Part shown: positions 6,724 through 8,653 of the stretch, piece by piece
How positions within the stretch are numbered: the stretch's first letter is position 1
How the letters are laid out: each line of letters opens with the position of its first letter
Source of the DNA: Citrus sinensis
Lineage: Eukaryota > Streptophyta > Magnoliopsida > Sapindales > Rutaceae
Direction: 5' to 3'
DNA length: 64,000 nt
Assembly: GCF_022201045.2 (NCBI RefSeq)
Contig: NC_068560.1
Coordinates: 23,267,501-23,331,500 of the forward strand
Translations under genes and position numbers: made by a program
The notes under the pieces: model-generated
What the model saw: the letters and a program-made list of their open reading frames with translations, nothing else
Databases searched by the model: none
What the model was told of the DNA's origin: nothing

Positions 6724-8653
6724 ATGGCAGAAGAGAAACTCCAAGTTCCAAGGGTGAAACTTGGTACCCAAGGCCTCGAGGTAAACTACCCATATGTAAT
6801 TTTTTTTTAAAATCAAATCCTGGAAATTTGTTTTCTACAATTGTGTGTTTTTCACGCTCTTACAGGTTTCAAAGTTGGGGCTTGGATGCATGAACCTGAG
6901 TGGAGGTTATAGCTCTCCAGTCTCAGAAGAGGATGGCATCTCAATGATAAAACATGCTTTCAGTAGAGGAATCACTTTCTTTGATACTGCTGATATGTAC
7001 GGACAAAATGCTAATGAAATTCTTCTGGGAAAGGTTATGGTCATTTCTTTGAATTCTCTTACCTCTTATATAATTCAGACATAGGTCAAGTGGTAACTTA
7101 AGAATCACAGTCCTGATGAAATATGTTTGTTTAGGAATTGGTCAATAATTACTTTTGTATCATAGAAGGAAAACCTTGTCAGATTTTTTTGAATCTTATT
7201 CCTTCGATTTCAGGCCTTCAAGATGTTGCCCAGAGAAAAGGTACAAATAGCCACAAAGTTTGGGGTTGTAGGACTAAGAGATAATGGCGTGATCGTGAAG
7301 GGCACCCCTGATTACGTGCGCTCGTGTTGTGAAGCTAGCTTGAAGCGACTTGATGTGGATTACATTGATCTATATTATCAACATAGAGTGGACACATCAG
7401 TCCCCATAGAGGAAACCGTGAGCGATTTGTTTTTTATTATTATTATTTTTTTTGGGCTATCTGAATTGTAGAGTTCTGTCCCAAATTGCAAAATTTAAAG
7501 AATTATTTTAGAAACTCTATTACTTGTCATGCTATAGATTGGCGAAATGAAGAAGCTGGTGGAAGAGGGTAAAATCAAGTACATTGGATTATCTGAGGCC
7601 AGCCCAGACACAATTAGGAGAGCACATGCTGTTCATCCCATCACAGCTGTACAAATGGAATGGTCCCTCTGGACTCGTGATATTGAGGAAGAGATAATAC
7701 CCCTCTGCAGGTTTGTTCTTCTTTCAGTGAACACTATCCGCATTAGTCTTTTCTTCTACAGGCCTTTGAAGAGTGTCTAAGGACCTATTTATTTGTTCCA
7801 ATCTAGTATTTTGTACCTAATGTTTGTAGAATTTTTTAAATTTAATTGCGTGCATAGAATAGAATAGATTTTCCGTGCAAGTGTATGCTAATAAATACAA
7901 GGCTGCCCTTCTGATACATTGAGGTGGGCAGGGAACTCGGCATTGGAATAGTTCCATACAGTCCTCTTGGTCATGGATTTTTTGGTGGCAAAGCTGTTGT
8001 GGAGAGTGTGCCTGCAGATAGCTTTTTGGTACTTTTTCCGATCAATGTTTATCCGCATCATTTTGTTTCCTAAGTCAGTACTATATAAAATGTTTTAAAC
8101 TAGCAAAAGTAGTTTTACAGTTTCTTTAACTGTTTTATATATCGTCGTACATATGAAAATGACACGTGTGTTTGTTTTATAAGCATTTTCTTCCTAGGTT
8201 CAAAGGAGAGAACCTGGACAGGAACAAGAGTATTTATTTTCGCATAGAGAACCTTGCCAAAAAGTACAATTGCACTTCTGCTCAACTAGCCCTAGCATGG
8301 GTTCTTGGACAGGGGGATGATGTCGTACCTATTCCCGGTAACTTCTTTCTTTTGAGTTTTTGATTCATGTATTGCCTTGAAGAAGTATATAGAGTTTAAA
8401 AAACCCAGCGGATAAAATGATATTACCAGCAATATTATTTACTGTTAAGTTGCTTCAATTTTCAGGGACAACTAAGATTAAAAACCTTGATGACAATATT
8501 GACTCCTTGAGGATTAAACTTACTAAAGAGGATCTGAAAGAAATTTCTGACGCTGTGCCCATAGAAGAGGTAGCAGGAGACAGAGACCCGGAAGGCTTTG
8601 ATAAAGCATCGTGGAAGTTTGCAAACACACCTCCAAAAGACTGCAAGGTTTGA
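6724..8653 (+). CDS. Aldo-keto reductase A2 (chimeric paralogue)
   Basis: Perakine reductase/PCNT115-like AKR, 346 aa. Exons: 6724-6780, 6866-7033, 7214-7417, 7538-7710, 7932-8028, 8184-8337, 8466-8653; 1041 nt in frame, all GT-AG. The tetrad D59, Y64, K90, H132 is intact, with FFDTADMYG in place of DVYG. Exon 2, intron 2 and most of exon 3 match A3 almost exactly (for example [14 protein letters not shown]). From the end of exon 3 onward, exons and introns match A1 almost exactly, intron 4 included. The gene is therefore a natural recombinant between A3-like and A1-like parents. No lesion is visible and it should be functional. The protein ends PPKDCKV. Confidence 0.93.

Follow-up and report, generated by a model that had tools for sequence, protein, structure and literature searches.

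A2, an aldo-keto reductase gene in a tandem array of Citrus sinensis, is a recombinant with one change of partner: it has an A3-type front and an A1-type back. The window, that is, the whole stretch of 64,000 nucleotides that was analysed, corresponds to C5:23267501-23331500 of a genome comprising 299,734,781 bases in 11 contigs. It contains part of the array, which extends further left, beyond the window. A literature search found nothing on the array itself among the entries listed. The citrus limonoid reductase CsAKR was weighed as a possible link to the array, and the accessible part of PMC9976607 gives no locus for it.

Each of the four genes A0, A1, A2 and A3 has seven exons, GT-AG introns and an open frame (Table 1). 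For A2, the exon set is one of 128 possible open sets and was picked by its fit to A0, A1, A3 and perakine reductase. The predicted A2 protein falls in Pfam family PF00248 (Aldo_ket_red; E 1.4e-79, 267.7 bits against a cut-off of 24), and its frame is intact. Two more relatives from the array, Am1 near -12.4 kb and Am2 near -31.8 kb, were used as outgroups.

Table 1. Features of the array, in window coordinates (position 1 is the first base of the window; negative values lie to its left).
Feature	Position	Strand	Comment
A0, intact gene	-2608 to about -565 (C5 about 23264892-23266935)		344 aa; just left of the window
A1	893-2953	+	intact, 344 aa; parent of the 3' part of A2; own 5' part A0-like, 3' part A3-like
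psiB1, degenerate gene copy lying between A1 and A2	3834-5580	+	3'-end remnant at 5551-5580 assigned by inference
psiB1 tail	4066-4970	+	counterpart in psiB2 at 11145-11939, 12% different
MITE-like repeat	about 4139-4445		in psiB1 intron 2; same place in psiB2
1.4 kb before A2, missing before A3	4970-6376	+	junction near 11937; 5-bp microhomology ATTAT, by eye
A3-type part of A2	6377-7348	+	G-box-bearing upstream region, then exon 1 into exon 3; (A2,A3) 100/100
G-box CACGTG	6556-6561	+	before A2; that of A3 at 12105
A2, chimeric aldo-keto reductase gene	6724-8653	+	346 aa, intact frame
A2 exons	6724-6780, 6866-7033, 7214-7417, 7538-7710, 7932-8028, 8184-8337, 8466-8653	+	GT/AG borders, open frame
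Switch interval, exon 3	7316-7370	+	95% set from variable sites; all sites give 7305-7370
A1-type part of A2 and 3' flank	7370-9540	+	8201-8788 uninformative; (A1,A2) 100/100 for 7370-8200, 99/98 for 8789-9010
Patch, A1, A2 and A3 equally alike (separate exchange)	8201-8788	+	contains the stop-codon change at 8645
psiB2, degenerate gene copy lying between A2 and A3	9540-11937	+	carries insertions of two dispersed repeats, at about 9659-10658 and 10805-11141
A3	12273-14214	+	intact, 346 aa; parent of the 5' part of A2
tRNA-Gly(GCC), intact	14859-14929	+	3' of A3; sole copy called as tRNA
Decayed tRNA-Gly look-alikes	starts 3593 and 9287		not called as tRNA

The change of partner is evident from the variable sites of a six-way alignment, as it also is in a three-way one. 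From about 6374 to 7348, A2 matches A3 at 150 sites and A1 at 20, while A1 and A3 agree at 12 and all three differ at 3. From 7370 to 9010, A2 matches A1 at 131 sites and A3 at 31, with 20 sites common to A1 and A3 and 4 at which all differ. A statistic like that of 3SEQ reached 100, as compared with a maximum of 38 in permuted data (0/100,000 permutations reached the observed value). Insertions and deletions follow the same division: left of the switch, 15 events unite A2 with A3, 6 unite A1 with A2 and 1 unites A1 with A3, and on the right, before 9295, the corresponding numbers are 0, 14 and 3. Excluded from the counts were the poly-T tract at 7422-7462 (7426-7462 in one comparison), the tRNA look-alike at 9291-9349 and columns gapped in the compared rows.

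Trees built from the separate parts place A2 with different relatives. The tree of the left part is ((A2,A3),(A0,A1)) and that of 7370-8200 is (((A1,A2),A3),A0), with all three inner branches starred in both; for 8789-9010, A1 and A2 are joined and one of the three inner branches is open. In AU tests, a forced (A1,A2) grouping was rejected in the left part (p 4e-55) and a forced (A2,A3) grouping was rejected in 7370-8200 (p 3e-6), the swapped groupings being those which the sequence-only reading had specified beforehand. Segmentation gave a BIC of 2870 without a cut, 2696 with one and 2690 with three; the three-cut solution sets apart 8201-8788 and contains no return to A3. Thus, site counts, the 3SEQ-like statistic, trees, AU tests and indels agree with that reading in placing A3 variants up to 7348 and A1 variants from 7370, and one change of partner was seen instead of the multiple alternating switches that it had set against its own proposal.

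The switch falls inside exon 3 under both versions of a one-switch model, run with all sites and with variable sites only. The last site at which A2 matches A3 is 7348 and the first at which it matches A1 is 7370; between them, at 7349-7369, there is no variable site and no indel, so that the three genes are identical here, as had been stated. The proposed resolution of about 21 bp was too narrow, although the placement in exon 3 stands. The 21-bp limit hangs on single sites, the interval 7349-7370 holds 0.38 of the probability mass with all sites or 0.76 with variable sites only, and the 95% sets are wider (Table 1).

Sites that run contrary to the main pattern are mostly private changes of one parent. 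When polarised by A0, all 20 contrary sites on the left are private to A3. A0 was ruled out as a clean outgroup for this side because of the tract that it has in common with A1, and Am1 and Am2 were added as a check: they agree at 11 of the same 20 sites, are mixed at 2, point the opposite way at 2, match neither state at 2 and provide no data at 3. On the right, 23 of the 31 contrary sites are private to A1 by the A0 criterion, 2 are shared and derived, 1 is of another kind and 5 fall in A0 gaps. The two shared-derived sites are 7497, where Am1 and Am2 disagree with A0, and 8645.

The two halves of A2 are similarly diverged from their sources. Noncoding differences are 24/603 between A2 and A3 on the 5' side and 38/939 between A1 and A2 on the 3' side. 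A first comparison, which used provisional exon borders that were off by some bases, gave 24/603 and 64/1427 (p 0.72, that is, alike), and it was redone with the final borders, to 9010 only. Intron 2 had been called essentially identical in A2 and A3; this overstates the likeness, with introns 1 and 2 together differing at 11/263 sites in addition to indels of 8 and 16 columns. The flanks track the parents, being 13/340 different between A2 and A3 upstream and 33/637 different between A1 and A2 downstream, but both matches are more limited than had been described. The upstream regions are comparable only from about 6377, with 1.4 kb missing on the A3 side. Downstream, the likeness to A1 extends to about 9540, whereas the tRNA look-alikes are strongly different, with 21 mismatches in 100 sites, and the psiB1 and psiB2 tails are 12% apart.

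Within the A1-type part of A2, one patch behaves differently. Variable sites in 8201-8788 are nearly evenly distributed (A1=A2 12, A2=A3 7, A1=A3 8), and so are the shared-derived sites as judged by the majority of three outgroups (A1=A2 4, A1=A3 3, A2=A3 2). The tree does not separate the branching of the three genes in this region. Between A1 and A3, the noncoding difference is 9/263 in the patch (intron 6 and 3'UTR), compared to 100/572 in introns 4 and 5 and downstream (p 1e-9). Given the equal likeness and the split derived sites, A3 and the A1/A2 type have therefore exchanged sequence here too. The claim that A1 variants continue to the end of A2 is too strong; inside the patch, A2 is equidistant from A1 and A3. 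The patch includes a stop-codon change at 8645 in A2 and 14206 in A3, which is derived, common to these two genes and absent from A0, A1, Am1 and Am2. These four have a TAG stop where A2 and A3 read AAG, resulting in read-through and the addition of two residues.

A further exchange tract is shared by A0 and A1 over the 5' part of the gene. Introns 1-2 of A0 and A1 differ at 20/265 sites and are closer than the upstream region (55/294, p 1e-4) or introns 3-5 (80/443, p 8e-5). Both this tract and 8201-8788 are flanked on each side by lower similarity, whereas A2 is bounded by structural breaks. In trees built without A2, the partner of A1 is A0 on the left and A3 in 7370-8200 (AU p 0.003 and 0.008 against the alternatives), groupings that were chosen after the trees were seen and so count for less. 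Depending on the model, exon 3 holds 0.82-0.98 of the probability for this change of partner, and the 95% set ranges from 7242-7422 to 6678-7524. A1 thus makes a switch of its own, leaving A0 for A3, and exon 3 is the most likely place for it. A1 joins an A0-like front to an A3-like back and A2 joins an A3-like front to an A1-like back; it is possible, and we suggest it tentatively, that exon 3 is a recurrent exchange point. If so, the array keeps pairing an upstream region and N-terminal part with a new C-terminal part.

The duplicated unit is not equally diverged throughout. The psiB tails differ at 94/775 positions (12.1%), as compared with 4.0% in both gene halves (38/939 and 24/603; p 5e-10 and 3e-8). 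The excess is present in the MITE-like repeat (35/304) and in the rest of the tail (59/469, 12.6%). Transversions number 40/890 in psiB, against 27/1427 on the A1/A2 side and 9/603 on the A2/A3 side, and transitions are raised too. Indel events number 16/890, against 2/1427 (p 1e-5) and 4/603 (p 0.07), respectively. Methylation-driven decay was rejected as the cause of the 12%, with transversions also raised and the non-MITE part as high as the MITE. Some neighbouring stretches are closer: the spacer up to 9540 differs at 7/191 sites and the first part of psiB exon 2 at 3/93, yet 9541-9655 (partly simple sequence) differs at 13/110, and a sharp psiB boundary is disfavoured. Dating by the two repeats inserted in psiB2 was set aside as too loose, their best copies being 85% and 90% alike among the 40 candidates scored out of 671 and 702. 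The MITE-like repeat has further copies on several contigs, with 40 out of 70 candidates scored. Transitions between 4066-4970 and 11145-11939 look uneven between strands (psiB1 letter first, psiB2 letter second: GA 25, TC 19, AG 9, CT 5).

Our preferred explanation, which we hold by a modest preference, is that unequal recombination in exon 3 made A2 and that smaller exchanges were added. Here, non-allelic (unequal) homologous recombination inside the conserved exon would have joined the front of an A3-type gene to the back of an A1-type gene. The product would be an intact, in-frame gene with the A3 upstream region and N-terminal part joined to the C-terminal part of A1, and the same event would add an extra A-psiB module. 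We infer that this module was added by crossover rather than by conversion. Separate exchanges would have homogenised exon 6 to the 3'UTR among A1, A2 and A3 and produced the A0-A1 tract. The psiB tail may have been replaced by a diverged copy or, less likely, may have decayed quickly. The right-hand module has also shed 1.4 kb and acquired insertions of two repeats. Unequal recombination is favoured because one event covers the similar ages, the long tracts and their shared meeting point. The stop-codon change at 8645, common to A2 and A3 on the A1 side, was counted against it.

The main difficulty is the age of psiB. A single crossover requires that everything between the two breakpoints be of equal age; the gene halves agree and the psiB tails do not. 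A clean single event is thus insufficient, and two readings are left: a later replacement of the psiB tail, or an older duplication followed by exchange between parts of the genes. The latter is the basis of a serious, if less probable, rival in which only gene conversion operated: the module was duplicated earlier and the middle gene was subsequently overwritten, with A1 as the source of its back and A3 as the source, or the recipient, of its front, the two tracts meeting in exon 3. In a variant, a single repair event used two donors. Conversion accommodates the psiB tails, which at 12% against 4% would keep the age of the older duplication, and it is in line with two conversion-like tracts elsewhere in the array, one in introns 1-2 of A0 and A1 and one in intron 6 and the 3'UTR of A1 and A3. 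In addition, both low-divergence tracts end beside structural breaks, namely the missing stretch at 6377 and the repeat insertion at about 9659, so that one of the two psiB2 insertions adjoins the 4% tract; these could be exchange tracts limited by pre-existing breaks. Conversion requires, however, two long tracts of similar divergence (about 1 kb and 2.2 kb) whose ends fall within about 60 bp of each other. In the part of a rice survey available to us, 69% of the conversion regions detected are shorter than 100 nt (PMC2277409), unlike the A2 tracts, which meet at one place, and this difference in length favours crossover.

That one clean unequal crossover between A3 and A1 predicts the exact order of the array had been the original proposal. 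The polarity, the single switch and the similar age of the halves fit it, as do the matching order and the mere 3/93 differences in the first part of psiB exon 2. To be sufficient, it needs the psiB tail to decay about three times faster, and this sits poorly with transversions as well as transitions being raised and with MITE and non-MITE parts being equal, a pattern that methylation-type decay does not fit well. Moreover, 8201-8788 needs another exchange anyway; together with the A0-A1 tract this makes two or more additional exchange tracts, and the A1 parent also switches. A clean crossover on its own is improbable. Young tandem repeats are prone to false joins in assembly, and A2 might be such a join, made from reads of A1 and of A3. 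A run of 21 C at 9314-9334, located in the tRNA-Gly look-alike 3' of A2 and absent from that of A1, was counted in favour of such an error. Against it, the noncoding sequence of A2 stands about 4% apart from each parent, A2 carries private substitutions left (12) and right (20, to 9010) of the switch as well as 4 private indel events, and psiB2 has insertions of its own, making an artefact very improbable.

Chimeric genes formed by unequal recombination in plant clusters are already known, and RGA08R of wild banana, as described in the accessible part of PMC3017797, is a close parallel. It arose by intragenic unequal recombination between RGA08X and RGA08W, so that, as in A2, a cluster gene changes identity between relatives inside the gene. 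The banana cluster also contains other exchanges, with 21 events at p < 0.05 in that source. The systems differ in that RGA08R concerns resistance genes compared between two haplotypes, whereas A2 belongs to an enzyme family seen in one haplotype. Conversion among rice paralogues, again from the accessible part of PMC2277409, resembles the present case in showing high-similarity tracts in a low-similarity context and in being commoner between close, similar genes on one chromosome, a likeness to this array. The less usual element here is the apparent reuse of exon 3 in this array, a reading based on two switches.

The outcome of the exchange is visible in the A2 protein and its upstream region. 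At all 11 differing positions within residues 77-106, A2 is of the A3 type, and its back comes from A1. The G-box before A2 has a counterpart before A3, and a scan of upstream stretches of A0, A1, A4 and A5 found none. Residue 215 (exon 5, PLGRG motif) carries a private Arg-to-His change; Arg is present in A0, A1, A3, Am1 and Am2 (PLDRG in Am2). Judged by sequence alignment to perakine reductase (PDB 3uyi, 3v0s, 3v0u), over which residues 8-341 align (E 1.4e-163 against 3uyi_A), that enzyme likewise has Arg where A2 has His. As the frames of both parents and of the product are intact in this clear natural chimera, it should be possible to measure what an exchange of upstream region and N-terminal third between close paralogues does. 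Whole-gene trees in such arrays mix histories. Downstream of A3, a repeat of about 1 kb at 15017-16007 has inverted copies at 47953-48956 (90%) and left of the window (88%).
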